NCBI GenBank assembly: GCA_016865015.1
Contig: CP018226.1
Location: 4,371,001 to 4,435,000 of the forward strand
Reading direction: 5' to 3'
Origin: Rhizobiales bacterium IMCC20636
GTDB taxonomy: Bacteria; Pseudomonadota; Alphaproteobacteria; Rhizobiales; GCA-2746425
Length of the DNA stretch: 64,000 nucleotides
Positions 24,417 through 32,144 of the stretch are shown here, piece by piece. The notes under the pieces were generated by a model. That model was not told the DNA's origin and did not search any database. It saw only the letters and a program-made list of their open reading frames with translations. A program made the translations under genes and the position numbers. Each line of letters begins with the position of its first letter. Position 1 is the stretch's first letter.

Positions 24417-24563
24417 GCTTCAGCCTGTTTCAACCTGACGCGTTCGTGGCGCTCTTTCAGACACTGCACCCCGGTTTCATGCTTCGATGTTCAAGAAAGT
24501 ACACTGTGCCTGACGACACCATCTTCGACTTGCCTTTCCACAAACTGCGTGGGAAATACACTC

Positions 24564-25640
24564 ATGGTTGCTGACCCTTCCGCCAAACCCACGCCCTCAT
24601 GGCTGCAAACGTTCAAGACCGTTGCAATCACATTGCTGACTGCAGCGCTGGGTGCTGGTGCGGCCTATTGGCTGGGCGCTCCTGCGCCCTTTCTGGTTGG
24701 CTCGTCGCTGTCGGTGACATGCCTTGGCCTGTACGGCGTGCCGGTCAATATTCCAAAGCATCTGCGCGATGCCTGTTTTGCCATTATCGGGATGACCATG
24801 GGCGCAGGCGTAACGCCGGAAGTTGTGCAAACCGCAAAGCAATGGCCATTGAGTTTTGTGGTTCTGGGCATATCGCTACTCGTTATCATACTGGTCTGCC
24901 GTCGCATGTTGGCTGTTTTCTGGCGGTTTGACACGATGACATCCCTGCTGTCGGTTGTTCCAGGTCATCTCAGCTATGTGCTTGGATTGTCTGCGGACAC
25001 GAAAGGCGATCTGGCAACGATCAGCGTCATTCAAAGCTTGCGCGTGCTTTCACTCACCCTTCTGGTGCCGTTTGCAGTTGTGTTGCTGGGGTTTGAAACA
25101 GGCGCATTTGATATGACCATCACCATCATGTCGCCTGCTATGTTTGCGCTCAGCATCGTCATGGCTTTCTCATTGGGTTTTGTTCTGAACCGGTTTCGCC
25201 TGCCAGCGGCCTATCTACTGGGTGGGCTGATCTGGTCAACCGGAAGCCATATCACCGGAACCATTGAGGGAACGGTATCTTCCTGGGTCGCCATCCCGGC
25301 CTTCATCACCATGGGTGCGCTGATCGGGACACGTTTTTTTGGTGTCACCCTTGCGCTGCTGAAACGGGCCTTCCTGGCCGGGGTTGCAGTGACACTGGCT
25401 GCCTTTTGCATAGCCGCAATAGCCGCCTGGATTGTATCGCTGTTCATTGATGCGCCGCTCAGCCATCTGCTGATCGCCTTTGCACCTGGCGGTGTTGAGA
25501 CCATGGCGGCCATGGCCGTATCGATGAACGCCGATCCGGCCTTTGTCGCCGCCCATCATGTGATGCGACTGTTCATCCTGACATTTCTTGCGCCAATCAT
25601 GCTGGGCATGGCCCGGCGCAGTGCGAAAGACGGTCTTTAG
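24564..25640 (+). CDS. AbrB-family membrane protein (PF05145)
   Basis: A 358-residue membrane protein of the AbrB duplication family (once named ammonia monooxygenase-like). Two repeats are visible: GAGAAYWLGAPAPFLVGSS...IGMTMGAGVTPEVV and, in the second half, LNRFRLPAAYLLGGLIWSTG...AFAPGGVETMAAMA. About ten hydrophobic segments. The physiological role of the family is unclear; regulatory or export roles have been suggested. The ATG at 24564 is preferred to a GTG 15 bases upstream. No obvious operon partner. Confidence 0.88.
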   Translation: MVADPSAKPTPSWLQTFKTVAITLLTAALGAGAAYWLGAPAPFLVGSSLSVTCLGLYGVPVNIPKHLRDACFAIIGMTMGAGVTPEVVQTAKQWPLSFVVLGISLLVIILVCRRMLAVFWRFDTMTSLLSVVPGHLSYVLGLSADTKGDLATISVIQSLRVLSLTLLVPFAVVLLGFETGAFDMTITIMSPAMFALSIVMAFSLGFVLNRFRLPAAYLLGGLIWSTGSHITGTIEGTVSSWVAIPAFITMGALIGTRFFGVTLALLKRAFLAGVAVTLAAFCIAAIAAWIVSLFIDAPLSHLLIAFAPGGVETMAAMAVSMNADPAFVAAHHVMRLFILTFLAPIMLGMARRSAKDGL

Positions 25641-25803: not shown

Positions 25804-26601
25804 ATGCCAAAGGCACACTGGCTGTTGTCATCAACAGCGCTTGTAAGTTTGATTACAACGCCGCTTGCTGCTGCGGACTTGGAAAGCTCTACGCCAGCGC
25901 CTGAATCCAAGCCAGCCGTTTCCGAGATCAACAGCAAATTTGACGTCCGCTGGAATAATATGTTCGGTGTTGACTCTGTTGCAGCTGTCGGCTCGGTTTC
26001 TATCCCCCTGTCCTTTTCATGGGGCGCTCAGCTGGACGGAATGGTTGGTAGCATCGATGGCGATTTTGCTGGTGGTGGCGCAGCACATCTTTTTTGGCGG
26101 GACCCTGATACTGCACTTCTCGGATTTTACGGAGAGTTTGCCCATGCATCTGCTGATGGCGGAGGCGACCAAACCAGAGTGGGTGCAGAGACAGAGTTTT
26201 ATATGGATCGCCTGATGTTGTCAGCTTTGGCTGGCTACCAGTTCGGTGATCTGGGTGAAGGATTCTTCTCCAAGACCAGCCTGTCCTACTTCCCGGATGA
26301 TAATTTGCGGCTCTATGTGCAGCACAAATATCTTCCAGGTGATGTTGATCATATCGGGTCTGTCGGTGGCGAATGGCTTATGCCGGTCCATGACAACAGC
26401 GTTTCATTGTTCGGCGAAGCGTCCTTCAGTGATGATGATGTTGGCGGTCAGGTCGGAATGCGGATTTATTTCGGTCCTCAGAAACCATTGATTGACCGTA
26501 TGAGAGAAGACGATCCAGGCGATCATTTCGATCTGTTCATGGCGGCTGCATCGAAAGCTATTGATGATGATGACGATCCGGCTGAGGTAATTGTGGAATA
26601 A
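25804..26601 (+). CDS. Putative outer-membrane beta-barrel protein
   Basis: A 265-residue exported protein with signal peptide MPKAHWLLSSTALVSLITTPLAAA. The mature part alternates polar and hydrophobic residues in strand-like stretches (VGSVSIPLSFSWGAQLDGMVG, LMLSALAGYQFGDLG, VSLFGEASFSDDDVGGQVGMRIYFG), as in small porin-like barrels, and the C-terminus is very acidic (AIDDDDDPAEVIVE). AAGGAG lies six bases before the ATG. No family recognised. It is convergent with the large fusion gene. Confidence 0.75.
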   Translation: MPKAHWLLSSTALVSLITTPLAAADLESSTPAPESKPAVSEINSKFDVRWNNMFGVDSVAAVGSVSIPLSFSWGAQLDGMVGSIDGDFAGGGAAHLFWRDPDTALLGFYGEFAHASADGGGDQTRVGAETEFYMDRLMLSALAGYQFGDLGEGFFSKTSLSYFPDDNLRLYVQHKYLPGDVDHIGSVGGEWLMPVHDNSVSLFGEASFSDDDVGGQVGMRIYFGPQKPLIDRMREDDPGDHFDLFMAAASKAIDDDDDPAEVIVE

Positions 26602-26649: not shown

Positions 26650-26684
26650 CTCTGAATTGATTGTAATGATTCAGAGCCCTTTTT
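26650..26684 (+). terminator. Probable terminator of the beta-barrel gene
   Basis: CTCTGAAT at 26650-26657 pairs with ATTCAGAG at 26669-26676, followed by ccctttttg. An eight-base AT-rich stem with a short T-run; moderate support. Confidence 0.5.
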
Positions 26685-26785: not shown

Positions 26786-29700
26786 TCAATCTGCCTGTTC
26801 CAATCCCACCACATCTTCAAACTTTCCACCGCTTGAGCGTTGGAGTTCCTCTACCTGCACCGGCTCAAGTCTTATGCTTGGATGGATCAGTTCAGCGGCA
26901 CGGCGGGCAACAGTTTGTGGGTCAAAATTCCGCGAGTCGCCATTGGCTACATACTGCAACTCAAAGCGATCAGGTGCCCGCTGCACAAGACGACTGCGCT
27001 CTGCATTCACCATCTCGCCCAATTCAGCCAATACAGTGCCAGATAACCACCGCTTCTCTCCATCAGGCAAAGTCACCATATTACGCCGTCGGCCTTCAAT
27101 GGTCGTGAGTGCGGGTAGTGATCTGCCGCACCGACAAGGTCCGGTAGCGAGGCGTGCATAATCGCCGATATCATAACGGATGAATGGTGTGGCGTAGTTG
27201 TAAAGGCTGGTCAAAACGACCCGCCCACTTTCACCTGGCGCGACGTGTTGCCCGTCGTCATCCAGTACTTCAAACAGAACATTCGACAAACAAACGTGAT
27301 AAAGTTCAGATTGGTCACACTGGATTGCCAGTTTTCCCATCTCCTGACAGCCATATGAATCAATCACTCTTGCGCCAAAACCATCACGGCAAAGCTGTCT
27401 GATCTCTGGTGTAAGAACCTCACCAACGGTGAGAATGGCATCAAACCGCAGAGAGCTGTTCTGTTTTATCGCTGCGAGTGCAAGCTCACGTATCATTGTT
27501 GGGTAACTCGTCAGATAGGGCGCTTTGACGAGCGCCAGCCAAGCGAGCTGGTCCTCTACTGGTGTGCTGACAGAGAGCCTGTACCGTGTTGCGTTTGGTG
27601 ATGATGGACTCCAACCTGGCTGCCCGCGTCCGCCAGGGAATTTATAGTGATCGCCTCCAAAACTCTTGATTTCTGCGAGTGGCACATCAAGATCCAGGTT
27701 GTGCCATCGATACATGCGCTCCGCTGCAGCCCTTGTCGACACAGTCGCGATACGGTTCCACGTGATATCAAGTGGAACTCCGCTAGAGCCGGAAGTGCGG
27801 GTAGCAAATGTCCGGTTGCCATCCTGAAGCTCGAATGCGCGACGACTAAGACGATGCTCTTGAGCTTCCTGGCGGGTCAACAAAGGAATATCAGTCCACG
27901 CCTCCGGATTAAATCGGCCTTCGTCAAAAAGCCGACTCAATCGACTGCGATAGAAGCGTGTATGTTGCCATGCATGCCGCAACAACTTTTCCAACTGCCT
28001 ACCTTGAATAGTGGCCACTTCGTTTGGCTGCGCGCGCTCCATATGAGCCAATGCCCGAGAGATCTCGTGCGTTGGATGCTCATTGAAATCAGGTTCGACA
28101 GCGGTTTCGGTGTTGTTTCTTGCTGCCAACACCCGCTCCACATGACGCAGCATGGTTTTGCAGCCATCAAGTTTGGAATTCTCGGAGAAATGATGAAATG
28201 CGAACACATTCGGCGAGCTGTTAACTTCAAGAATCCAGTGATTTTCGCTTGTTGCAGGCTGTGTGGGATTTTTTACGATCATATCCATCGCACCGACTGA
28301 CAAACCATCAATTGCTCGGAATGCCTTATTTGCGTTGGCCACATAGGATGGATGGATATCCGTGGCAATTACCGCTCTTACACCTGATGATAAATGTGAA
28401 GTAGATGCAAAAATCAGTTTCTCATCTATTGGGATTATGTCTGCCAAATCAATTCCGCGGCGTGCCAGATCTGTGACCATAGCACGGGTAATCACCGCTG
28501 GTTTTCGCTGACTTGCGTCACGGTTTGTGTTGCGCTGTTCAATCAATTTGATGACATTTGATTTACCATCCCCCATCACAGCAGAACGATCCTGGTATTG
28601 AGTGGTACAGACATCCGGTGCCAGATAGAATAGACGCACTACTTCACCATCAACACTACGCTCTACAATGATTTTCCCAAATGCCTTCGCAACATCCCGA
28701 AAGGCCTTTACTACTTCCGCGCTGGTTGTCAGCCCAGTGCTGACCAATCGACCTTTTGACCCAGACATTGGCTTTACACAAACCGGGTAGCCAATTTCGT
28801 CGGCATAGACTAACGCTTCAGCCAATTGACTTGATGCAAACATCCGTCCTTCAGGACCTGAAAGTCCAACCGTCTCAAGAACGTCTCTCGTCGCTTGCTT
28901 GTTGACCGTTATTTTTACTGCGTCTTCGTTAATATGGCCGGTGCTGCCGTTCTGATTGACAATATGAATAGCACCGTTCCGAAACTGAACAGGTGTTGAA
29001 CCAATCTCAATCTGAAGTGTTCGCCGGCTACCTTTCCTCGACCCGGTGGTGACCATTCGAGTATCCATCCCCAATTCGCGGGCCGCAGGGATGAGGCAAT
29101 TGATGTCCAAATCATAGCGTTCGACACCCCGGTCACGCTTTGTGAGTATTGGATCTGTCATGCCTTCATGTTGCAGGCTTGCCAGCATTTGGACGAGTGC
29201 TGCAGCGATTTTGATTTCCCGTCCATCAGTCGCGTAGCAAGTTTGCTTAAAATCTACCGACGGTTGGACAGCACAAAATTGAAAACTGGATGAACTGGCT
29301 GGTTGATCATGACTCGACAGCCGCATATCGATTGCCCCGTATGTCAGCGAAGGGAATGCCGCAAGAGCGTGCTGGGCTTCCATGAAATACGAAGGGTGGG
29401 GCAGGCTCTTACCTGCCATAAGCACAGTCTTTTCCGGTATGTACATTGACAACTCGCCCGGGCGCAGAGTTTGCTGGTCAAGAACTTCCCTGACCCCCAG
29501 CATTTGGTGCGCTGCGAAATAGAAACGAAACGTCCGTCCTGTCGGCACGGTTTCAATGGATATTGTCTCACAAAAGGTGGCCAGCATCCCCACGACGTTC
29601 TCAAAGCCGCCTCCAGTGTGGGAACAGAGCCAGGCCGATCCAAGCTCACGATCATCTGGCGCTATAAGCAGCGGTGGTGTCATGCGCTTTGCATAGGCGA

Positions 29701-30028
29701 ACATTGCATCAAGCGCAGAGGAACGAAAAGACTTGCCAGTGGCCACCGGCACGCCCACCATTTCAAGTGCAGCCCGCGTTGCGGACCGGCTCAAGGTTGT
29801 CTCTGCAGCCGAACCGTTCAAAGGATGTCCGGCCTGCCAAGAGTGAACCGGCGACTCTTCGTAAATCACACCGGCACGAACAACAAAACTACGAAACGCT
29901 GTTTCGATACGACCAAAACCAGTCTTAACATCGTCTGAAGTTAATTCTATTGCAGAGGTTTTGAGACCAGCGTGCGCGGCCTCCTCCAGCAAAAAGTTGG
30001 AGCCTTCATCGAGCTCTATCAAGGGCAT
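26786..30028 (-). CDS. Tandem ATP-grasp / PaaK-type adenylate-forming fusion protein
   Basis: A 1080-residue cytoplasmic protein with no signal peptide. Residues about 79-260 form a degenerate ATP-grasp module and about 374-630 a second, intact one resembling cyanophycin synthetase and GshF-type ligases: Lys419 (VCVKP), Glu456, MGDGKSNVIKLIE, Asp582 and Glu601/Asn603 (LEVNSSPN). Aligned positions in module 1 are Ala123, Ala253 and Gln255, so it probably does not bind ATP and metal. Residues about 680-1080 are PaaK/CapK-like: TSGSSGVP at 745-752, YGCQEMG, YDIGDYARL and CRCGR. It may activate one acid and ligate it to an amino acid; no partner genes adjoin. The SD AGGAG abuts the ATG, so TTG at 30022 may be the true start. 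Confidence 0.85.
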   Translation of the reverse strand: MPLIELDEGSNFLLEEAAHAGLKTSAIELTSDDVKTGFGRIETAFRSFVVRAGVIYEESPVHSWQAGHPLNGSAAETTLSRSATRAALEMVGVPVATGKSFRSSALDAMFAYAKRMTPPLLIAPDDRELGSAWLCSHTGGGFENVVGMLATFCETISIETVPTGRTFRFYFAAHQMLGVREVLDQQTLRPGELSMYIPEKTVLMAGKSLPHPSYFMEAQHALAAFPSLTYGAIDMRLSSHDQPASSSSFQFCAVQPSVDFKQTCYATDGREIKIAAALVQMLASLQHEGMTDPILTKRDRGVERYDLDINCLIPAARELGMDTRMVTTGSRKGSRRTLQIEIGSTPVQFRNGAIHIVNQNGSTGHINEDAVKITVNKQATRDVLETVGLSGPEGRMFASSQLAEALVYADEIGYPVCVKPMSGSKGRLVSTGLTTSAEVVKAFRDVAKAFGKIIVERSVDGEVVRLFYLAPDVCTTQYQDRSAVMGDGKSNVIKLIEQRNTNRDASQRKPAVITRAMVTDLARRGIDLADIIPIDEKLIFASTSHLSSGVRAVIATDIHPSYVANANKAFRAIDGLSVGAMDMIVKNPTQPATSENHWILEVNSSPNVFAFHHFSENSKLDGCKTMLRHVERVLAARNNTETAVEPDFNEHPTHEISRALAHMERAQPNEVATIQGRQLEKLLRHAWQHTRFYRSRLSRLFDEGRFNPEAWTDIPLLTRQEAQEHRLSRRAFELQDGNRTFATRTSGSSGVPLDITWNRIATVSTRAAAERMYRWHNLDLDVPLAEIKSFGGDHYKFPGGRGQPGWSPSSPNATRYRLSVSTPVEDQLAWLALVKAPYLTSYPTMIRELALAAIKQNSSLRFDAILTVGEVLTPEIRQLCRDGFGARVIDSYGCQEMGKLAIQCDQSELYHVCLSNVLFEVLDDDGQHVAPGESGRVVLTSLYNYATPFIRYDIGDYARLATGPCRCGRSLPALTTIEGRRRNMVTLPDGEKRWLSGTVLAELGEMVNAERSRLVQRAPDRFELQYVANGDSRNFDPQTVARRAAELIHPSIRLEPVQVEELQRSSGGKFEDVVGLEQAD

Positions 30029-30474: not shown

Positions 30475-31761
30475 TTAAGCTGCTTTGGTAAACTGGGCGG
30501 TTTCAGTGGATTCGCCCATGGCTGTGGTTGATGACTGGCCACCGGCAATGGCAACGCTGACAGCGTCGAAGTATCCGGTGCCGACTTCGCGCTGGTGGCG
30601 GGTGGCAGTGTATCCGTCTGCTTCGGAGGCGAACTCAGCCTGCTGCAGTTCCGAATAGGCTGCCATTCCGCGTTCCTTGTAGCCACGGGCCAGTTCGAAC
30701 ATGCCGTGATTCAACTGATGGAAGCCTGCCAGCGTGACGAACTGGAACTTGTAACCCATGGCACCCAGCTCGCGCTGGTAGACCGCGATGGTTTCCTTAT
30801 CCAGATTGGCTTCCCAGTTGAATGATGGCGAACAATTGTAAGCCATCATCTTGCCAGGGAATTCCTTCTGGATGGCTTCTGCAAAGCGGCGTGCATCATC
30901 CAGATTGGGTTTGGAAGTTTCCCACCAGATCAGATCCGCATGGCGGGCAAAGGCCAGACCACGCTTGATGCAATGCTCGACACCGGTGCCTTCCTTGAGA
31001 CGGAAGAAGCCTTCCGGCGTGCGTTCACCGGTCAGGAACTCATGATCCCGTTCATCGACATCCGATGTGATCAATCGTGCTGATTCCGCATCTGTCCGTG
31101 CCACCACAAGCGTTGAGGTTCCGCAGGTATCTGCTGCCAGACGCGCCGCATCAAGATTGCGGATATGGGCCTGTGTCGGGATCAGAACCTTGCCACCCAG
31201 ATGGCCACATTTTTTCTCGGATGCCAGCTGATCTTCAAAGTGAACGCCGGCAACACCTGCCTCAATATAGGCTTTCATGATTTCAAAGCAGTTCAGTGGT
31301 CCGCCGAAGCCGGCTTCCGCATCTGCTACGATTGGAACAAACCAGTCCCGCACAGCGCCGCCCTCACTGTGTTCGATCTGATCAGCGCGCTGCAGGGTGC
31401 GGTTGATCTTGCGTGCCAGCTCAGGACCGGAATTTGCAGGGTAGAGACTTTGATCAGGATACATCGCCCCGGCCACATTTGCGTCTGCCGCGACCTGCCA
31501 GCCAGACAGGTAAATGGCTTTCAAACCAGCCCGCGCCATCTGCATGGCCTGATTGCCGGACATGGCCCCCAGCGCATTGATGTAATCTTCTGATTTCAAA
31601 AGATCCCACAATTTGCGAGCGCCCTTGTCGGCGAGGGTATGCTCGATTTTCACTGAGCCGCGCAAGCGCGCCACATCGTCAGCGCTGTAGGGACGCTCTA
31701 TATACTGAAAACGATCTTCAGTCGTATTCGGAACCAAAGTGCTGAATGTGTTCTGTGACAT
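30475..31761 (-). CDS. aceA: Isocitrate lyase
   Basis: A 428-residue isocitrate lyase, splitting isocitrate to glyoxylate and succinate in the glyoxylate shunt, needed on acetate and fatty acids. The catalytic signature KKCGHLGG is present, as are LFFEDQ-like VHFEDQ, the metal-site region [10 protein letters not shown] and NCSPSFNW. The ATG at 31761 has AAGGA nine bases upstream; an ATG at 31770 would abut that site. Divergent from an ScfR-like regulator. Confidence 0.96.
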
Positions 31762-32144
31762 TGTTCTCATTCCTTAAGTCAACATGCCGCCTTTCGGGCG
31801 GTCTCCGGGTTTATTGCGCTGCGAAAATCATTGATTTTGCGGCACTGTGAAAACTGAAACCTTCCCTCTCAAATCCGTCATTATGATTTTTGCAGTAATT
31901 TACAAAAAATTTTCAAATCAGGATTTTCGGTCGGCGTGTTTCGTTTTCTTGCGTTCAAACTTCCATTGTTGAAATTTAATTACAACAATTATTCGTTTTA
32001 GGAGTTCCAGAATGGTGTCAGCGTGTAAAGTCATCTTTGTAAACTTTGTAATTTTGTAATGTTTGTAAATAAATTATCGTTTGCTCTGGACATTTTGCGC
32101 TGCACAGTTTTCAGTGGGTGCAGTGCACATGGAGGACTATTCGC
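31762..32144. promoter_or_regulatory. aceA / scfR-like divergent control region with TTTGTAA array
   Basis: An AT-rich 383-base spacer with no gene. TTTGTAA occurs four times at 32036, 32045, 32053 and 32062, spaced by 8-9 bases, and its complement TTACAAA at 31900 next to TTTTCAAAT. The array lies on the regulator's side, ending about 75 bases before its start; the inverted copy lies about 140 bases upstream of aceA. These are strong candidates for binding sites of the ScfR/RamB-like protein. Sites are seen; binding is inferred. Confidence 0.55.

Follow-up and report, generated by a model that had tools for sequence, protein, structure and literature searches.

ATP-grasp ligases form acyl-phosphates, and PaaK-like enzymes form acyl-adenylates and are equally able to make CoA thioesters. 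Separate amide bond synthetases (ABS) and ATP-grasp enzymes make pseudopeptides in the dapdiamide, cystargolide, belactosin, and E-64 pathways (PMC12568646, PMC11427300). In these pairs (DdaG/DdaF, CysC/CysD, and BelV/BelU), an adenylate-forming ligase and an ATP-grasp ligase both activate carboxylates with ATP, and no NRPS is involved. In the window, which is the whole 64,000-nucleotide stretch of DNA that was analysed, the two kinds of ligase were found in one chain, within a two-gene cassette, whereas the described pairs are separate genes inside natural-product clusters, with no dead ATP-grasp module reported and no outer-membrane partner. By analogy, the fusion resembles the DdaG/DdaF-type pairs in its logic, and no orthology is claimed. 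The open-access literature gave separate ABS and ATP-grasp pairs only, with no paper on a linkage between PaaK and outer-membrane-type proteins (OMP) or on a PaaK/ATP-grasp fusion, in agreement with the preliminary description, which knew of no characterised enzyme with this domain order.

The minus-strand open reading frame of the fusion (26786–30028) was uninterrupted, and the plus strand at the same place was full of stops. The preliminary description counted 1080 residues from the ATG at 30028, and that numbering is kept here; the open frame was confirmed, and the start was probably misplaced. The Shine-Dalgarno sequence AAGGAG directly abutted this ATG and was located 6 nt ahead of a TTG at 30022, and in the ortholog of a second species the TTG was conserved and the ATG was out of frame. 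Therefore, the true start is probably TTG 30022, which gives a protein of 1078 residues. The ortholog, an intact protein of 1079 residues with 72% identity over modules 1 and 2, was found at the same place with the same neighbours, which ruled out a frameshift or an assembly chimera and upheld the view of a single gene. The AT-richer composition noted earlier for parts of the gene was real but modest (GC ~47–55%, compared with ~55–57% in most neighbouring genes). NCBIfam and PDB searches placed an ATP-grasp ligase at residues ~347–613 and a PaaK-like adenylating ligase at residues ~660–1076, and the proposed order of ATP-grasp, ATP-grasp, and PaaK-type domains with a dead first module held (Table 1). 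As judged from its sequence, the fusion gene is real, intact, and under selection.

Table 1. Features of the fusion locus (positions in the window).
Feature	Position	Strand	Remarks
Membrane protein gene (AbrB-like by eye)	24549..25640	+	other edge of insertion site, outside the unit
Partner secreted protein, 265 aa	25804..26601	+	signal peptide, beta-strand periodicity
Terminator-like hairpin between the convergent genes	26650..26676	+	such sites in the region not above shuffles
Fusion gene, ATP-grasp (dead) + ATP-grasp + PaaK-like ligase	26786..30022	-	1078 aa from TTG 30022
PaaK-like adenylate-forming domain, residues 641–1080	26786..28108	-	NCBIfam, PDB, motifs
Module 2, CphA/GshF/RimK-type ATP-grasp ligase, residues 299–640	28109..29134	-	NCBIfam, PDB, alignment
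Module 1, pre-ATP-grasp + degenerate ATP-grasp, residues 1–298	29135..30028	-	blastp, hhalign, alignments
Isocitrate lyase-type gene (name by eye)	30475..31770	-	edge of insertion site, outside the unit

Module 2 retained all family-invariant residues of its alignment (A3), including Lys419, Glu456, Arg465, Asp582, Glu601, and Asn603. The invariant Lys residues, Glu, Arg, Asp, and ExN of ATP-grasp enzymes were all present and were conserved in the ortholog, and by sequence the ATP-grasp active site is complete. The best solved relatives were 7lgm, 7lg5, and 8fxh. Module 2 was homologous to CphA (TIGR02068), GshF, and RimK-type ligases and shared every active-site residue with them. However, the fusion was ruled out as a cyanophycin synthetase, with 148 bits against a TIGR02068 cut-off of 850, a best match ending at profile position 452 of 862, and none of the Mur-ligase-like C-terminal half of CphA.

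The only hit of the family libraries in residues 1–300 was a marginal one, to cyanophycin synthetase (E 0.012). When module 1 was compared with module 2, the mutual alignment reported earlier was recovered by blastp as two collinear segments, one of 114 aa at 28% (E 5e-7) and one of 47 aa at 38% (E 2e-6), and hhalign matched residues 13–257 to a profile of module-2-type ATP-grasps (97.8%, E 1.1e-12). By these alignments, module 1 is a homologue of the CphA/RimK-clade ATP-grasp over the fold. An AlphaFold2 model of module 1, with module 2 as the sole aligned row, reached a pLDDT of 33.7, too low to be usable. The catalytic Lys, Glu, and Asn positions were occupied by Ala123, Ala253, and Gln255 in module 1, and by Ala, Ala, and His in the second species; the assignments first made for these three residues and for Lys419, Glu456, Asp582, Glu601, and Asn603 of module 2 were exact. 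Module 1 was without ~45 residues of the central ATP-grasp segment and still had Glu159, Arg168, HPSY, and Asp234. It is predicted to be catalytically dead, a state common to the second species.

Between the two fusion copies, the dN/dS values were 0.27 for module 1, 0.17 for module 2, and 0.12 for the PaaK part, and these values are rough because dS was near 0.9. By this measure module 1 is the least constrained third, yet it is not drifting freely, and its purifying selection is compatible with a role as a scaffold or substrate-binding domain. The partner OMP was also under purifying selection.

In a tree with standalone relatives, modules 1 and 2 were both located within one ATP-grasp clade sharing HPSY and related motifs, and the branch of module 1 was very long. 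A single clade of the two modules had no support but was not rejected either (AU p 0.12). The internal duplication proposed earlier is thus no more than a plausible account of their origin. The closest homologs of both modules were standalone HPSY-type ATP-grasps with 30–37% identity to module 2, and their loci differed from the fusion locus in having an acyl carrier protein (ACP) and a second ATP-grasp alongside, with no PaaK and no OMP. A conserved set of four genes was observed at L208 (7710–11202), L209 (7953–11420), L211 (5994–9287), and L030 (4622–8310), and encoded an ATP-grasp, an ACP, a thioesterase-like or hydrolase-like protein, and a YheCD ATP-grasp. One such set was carried by an Azospirillum plasmid, where genes for type I secretion and glycosyltransferases lay next to it. 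The gene set looks like an ACP-dependent, NRPS-free peptide pathway. A 1660-aa protein encoded on the pAt plasmid of Agrobacterium tumefaciens (L031, 2347–7329) combined three ATP-grasp modules, one of them of the YheCD type. Its gene lay between genes for type I secretion and one for a hydrolase, and the protein may represent a fused version of this pathway.

The C-terminal third, which had been described as PaaK/CapK-type with TSGSSGVP, was PaaK-like in the family and PDB searches, and its adenylation motifs were complete. The elements of the adenylate-forming superfamily were represented by the P-loop TSGSSG (residues 745–750), YGCQE (892) for the A5 motif YGxxE, RYDIGD for the A7 motif RYxxGD, and the C-terminal Lys of GGKFED (1067–1072), which was invariant in the PaaK alignment (A6). 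The catalytic residues of this part were conserved in the ortholog as well. The best family match was the DVU_1553 AMP-dependent CoA ligase NF045666, with 130.5 bits against a cut-off of 300, and the phenylacetate-CoA ligase TIGR02155 gave 39 bits against 646. The C-terminal third thus had the adenylation motifs in common with both families but scored below both curated cut-offs, and it was rejected as a member proper of either.

The fusion had been described as standing alone; however, the secreted-protein gene convergent with it (tail to tail) belongs with it. The partner gene had a signal peptide (by eye) and the Shine-Dalgarno sequence AAGGAG, and its product showed a beta-moment z of +4.0 and an alpha z of -1.1 compared with shuffles. 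The partner protein had no match in Pfam, NCBIfam, PADLOC, or PDB, hhalign of its family against a PF13505-type set covered 15 columns only, and AlphaFold2 on the OMP alone gave a pLDDT of 33.8, too low for interpretation. The name outer-membrane beta-barrel is a prediction because there was no family or PDB match, and the signal peptide and strand periodicity make it probable. In the OMP family (alignment A9), the mature N-terminus was AVSGxNGK, and a near-invariant SLIRRHREDDP followed the last strand. The corresponding segment of the partner was KPLIDRMREDDP (window 26482–26517), and the tail past it was variable in length and sequence across the family, which is unusual for a barrel protein. 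In two congeners (G001 and G003), both flanking genes were adjacent, and the fusion and the OMP were both missing; the two genes were therefore gained or lost together. An anti-phage defence system was rejected, with no PADLOC match at E <= 1.

Full-length homologs of the fusion were found in two of the five genomes of the genus, the window's genome and one congener. The homologue survey proposed earlier thus gave one full-length copy with the same neighbours, and none in the three other congeners or in the order (398), class (385), and phylum (399) samples. These samples were partial and overlapping, with roughly 1,000 genomes, so the rarity of the fusion holds within these sets. Scans of viral contigs gave no relatives of the fusion, the OMP, or the ATP-grasp, a scan of genome contigs gave one distant PaaK-like locus, and plasmid relatives of the fusion were partial matches only.

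The window's genome contained five further PaaK-like paralogs and several OMP paralogs. When 40 loci were scanned with both profiles, 36 PaaK–OMP adjacencies were found, with 26 convergent, 10 divergent, and none on the same strand, and nearly all of the divergent neighbours lay within tandem arrays. The median stop-to-stop gap of the convergent pairs was 82 bp. Three more convergent pairs (L201–L203) brought the tail-to-tail cases to 29, and nine convergent pairs, in eight genomes, were outside the genus and included other families. Across non-syntenic loci, PaaK was the only gene family that recurred beside the OMP. The OMP was present in 17 of the 19 PaaK genomes compared with 44 of 298 overall (Fisher p 5e-14; two 298-genome draws were taken as one set, per their handles), and the co-occurrence persisted without the genus (p 4e-10). 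The PaaK and OMP distances of 27 pairs were correlated with a Mantel r of 0.84 (p 2e-4), which backs co-inheritance more surely than direct contact because orthologous pairs inflate r. The value was 0.80 within the genus, where genomes have several paralogs, and 0.48 for the divergent neighbours used as a control. From these comparisons, the fusion is the form with an ATP-grasp extension within a widespread PaaK-like family whose genes accompany that of an outer-membrane-type protein.

Other barrels also adjoined PaaK. A PF13505 barrel, without an A1-type OMP, was located beside PaaK at eight loci (L155, L157, L158, L159, L193, L197, L199, and L200), and an inverse autotransporter at L195. The PF13505 adjacency is, on a rough estimate, far above chance because there are only 7–25 PF13505 genes per genome. 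At L159 and L193, the gene order was barrel, small methyltransferase-like gene, and PaaK; the methyltransferase match was weak for the L193 copy, and the L159 copy had none. A methyltransferase-like gene also lay between barrel and PaaK at L155, and a UGT-type glycosyltransferase between OMP and PaaK at L192 and L194. The exceptions to pairing were L033, a PaaK paralog of the window's genome with no barrel seen and no OMP nearby, L196, with a Porin_2 gene 1.7 kb away, and L198, with a poor ORF call.

Tandem PaaK/OMP arrays were observed in one genus, at L149–L150 (G002, 4117–4136 kb), L151 (G001, C14), L153 (G003, 1236–1244 kb), and L032 (window's genome, 1415–1425 kb), and a genome had as many as 10 PaaK copies. 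A transposase-like fragment lay in one array, and one G003 copy was broken by internal stops. At L067 (6561–9484; 764–767 kb of the window's own genome), an OMP-family domain formed part of a long ORF next to a gene for a UGT-type glycosyltransferase, with no PaaK, and the surroundings look like a sugar-metabolism locus.

The fusion is tentatively read as an amide ligase that acts in two steps for a dedicated surface protein, a reading based on analogy and held with somewhat less than even confidence. The PaaK part would convert a carboxylic acid to an acyl-AMP, which would then be joined to an amine (or a thiol), and module 2 would convert a second carboxylate to an acyl-phosphate, which would then be joined to an amine. 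The outcome of both steps would be a small amide or pseudo-dipeptide, and module 1 would act as a structural or substrate-binding scaffold. More weakly, the product might be used by the partner surface protein as an attached group or a cognate ligand. Where a PaaK relative is linked to this or another type of outer-membrane barrel but has no ATP-grasp extension, it would play a comparable part, and the accessory place in other cassettes may be filled by a gene for a methyltransferase or a UDP-glycosyltransferase. Seen as cassettes of a ligase and a barrel with swappable extras, the loci suggest a small group attached to, or recognised by, the barrel. The amide-bond-forming system proposed earlier thus remains the best chemical reading by analogy with the ABS and ATP-grasp pairs, and the term self-contained does not fit a gene whose family is coupled to an outer-membrane-type protein. 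Several observations stand against the amide-ligase reading. The best family match of the PaaK part, far below cut-off, was an AMP-dependent CoA ligase, and the nearest standalone ATP-grasps adjoin an ACP and a YheCD ATP-grasp, which are absent at the fusion. Convergent genes cannot be co-transcribed, and the L033 paralog has no OMP nearby.

The CoA ligases among the relatives bear on a different and rather unlikely reading, vectorial uptake, in which the barrel would be a carboxylic-acid channel and PaaK would trap the acid as a CoA thioester (FadL/FadD logic), with the ATP-grasp modules conjugating the trapped acid further. PaaK relatives are mostly CoA ligases, and the tandem arrays of diverged pairs would suit many different acids. 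However, no catabolic genes recurred beside the pairs, the accessory genes were not dehydrogenases or hydratases but UGT and methyltransferase-like genes, and the linked barrels included an inverse autotransporter, which is no channel type.

Some autotransporters are modified by dedicated glycosyltransferases, and RimK-type ATP-grasp enzymes modify proteins. With these precedents, the ligase may covalently modify the partner surface protein before export, with no free small product, and in other cassettes it may act with an ATP-grasp, a methyltransferase, or a glycosyltransferase; this is considered possible at a low probability. The RimK-type precedent, the few enzymes per surface protein with nothing else recurrent in the cassette, the co-divergence of PaaK and OMP (r 0.84), and the linkage to several unrelated barrel families are consistent with such modification. 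However, the OMP showed no evident modified residue or tag, and AVSGxNGK and SLIRRHREDDP were also found in OMPs without an adjacent PaaK gene. Generalised to the loci as a whole, and still doubtful, it would describe an undescribed family of cassettes of two or three genes, in each of which a dedicated outer-membrane barrel protein is covalently modified by cytosolic PaaK-like ligases, with an ATP-grasp optionally fused or a methyltransferase or glycosyltransferase alongside. The gene in the window would then be the ATP-grasp-armed form, and the cassettes would have been diversified by tandem duplication in one genus.

It is very unlikely that the protein is a plain CoA- or acyl-adenylate ligase with both ATP-grasp modules as a regulatory or oligomerisation extension without chemistry; module 1 is dead and the ATP-grasp part is missing from most of the PaaK clade, but module 2 retains every ATP-grasp invariant residue with a dN/dS of 0.17. 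It is highly improbable that the two genes are a mobile or decaying pair, without a stable function, that spread through insertion and recombination, since the patchy presence in the genus (two of five genomes), the transposase-like fragment, and the internal stops of the G003 copy are set against purifying selection on all three fusion parts and the OMP, the same synteny in two species, and a pairing conserved over several families.

The ligase–OMP cassette is the more novel element, and the fusion itself varies a known amide-ligase logic; the pairing of an enzyme with a surface protein across a bacterial order is apparently undescribed. The correction that the fusion does not stand alone makes it more interesting. 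If the amide-ligase reading is true, the fusion would be a one-chain version, with a naturally dead module, of the ABS and ATP-grasp amide chemistry now in biocatalysis. More widely, it would be one case of an unnamed association, seen repeatedly, of acid-activating ligases with outer-membrane proteins.
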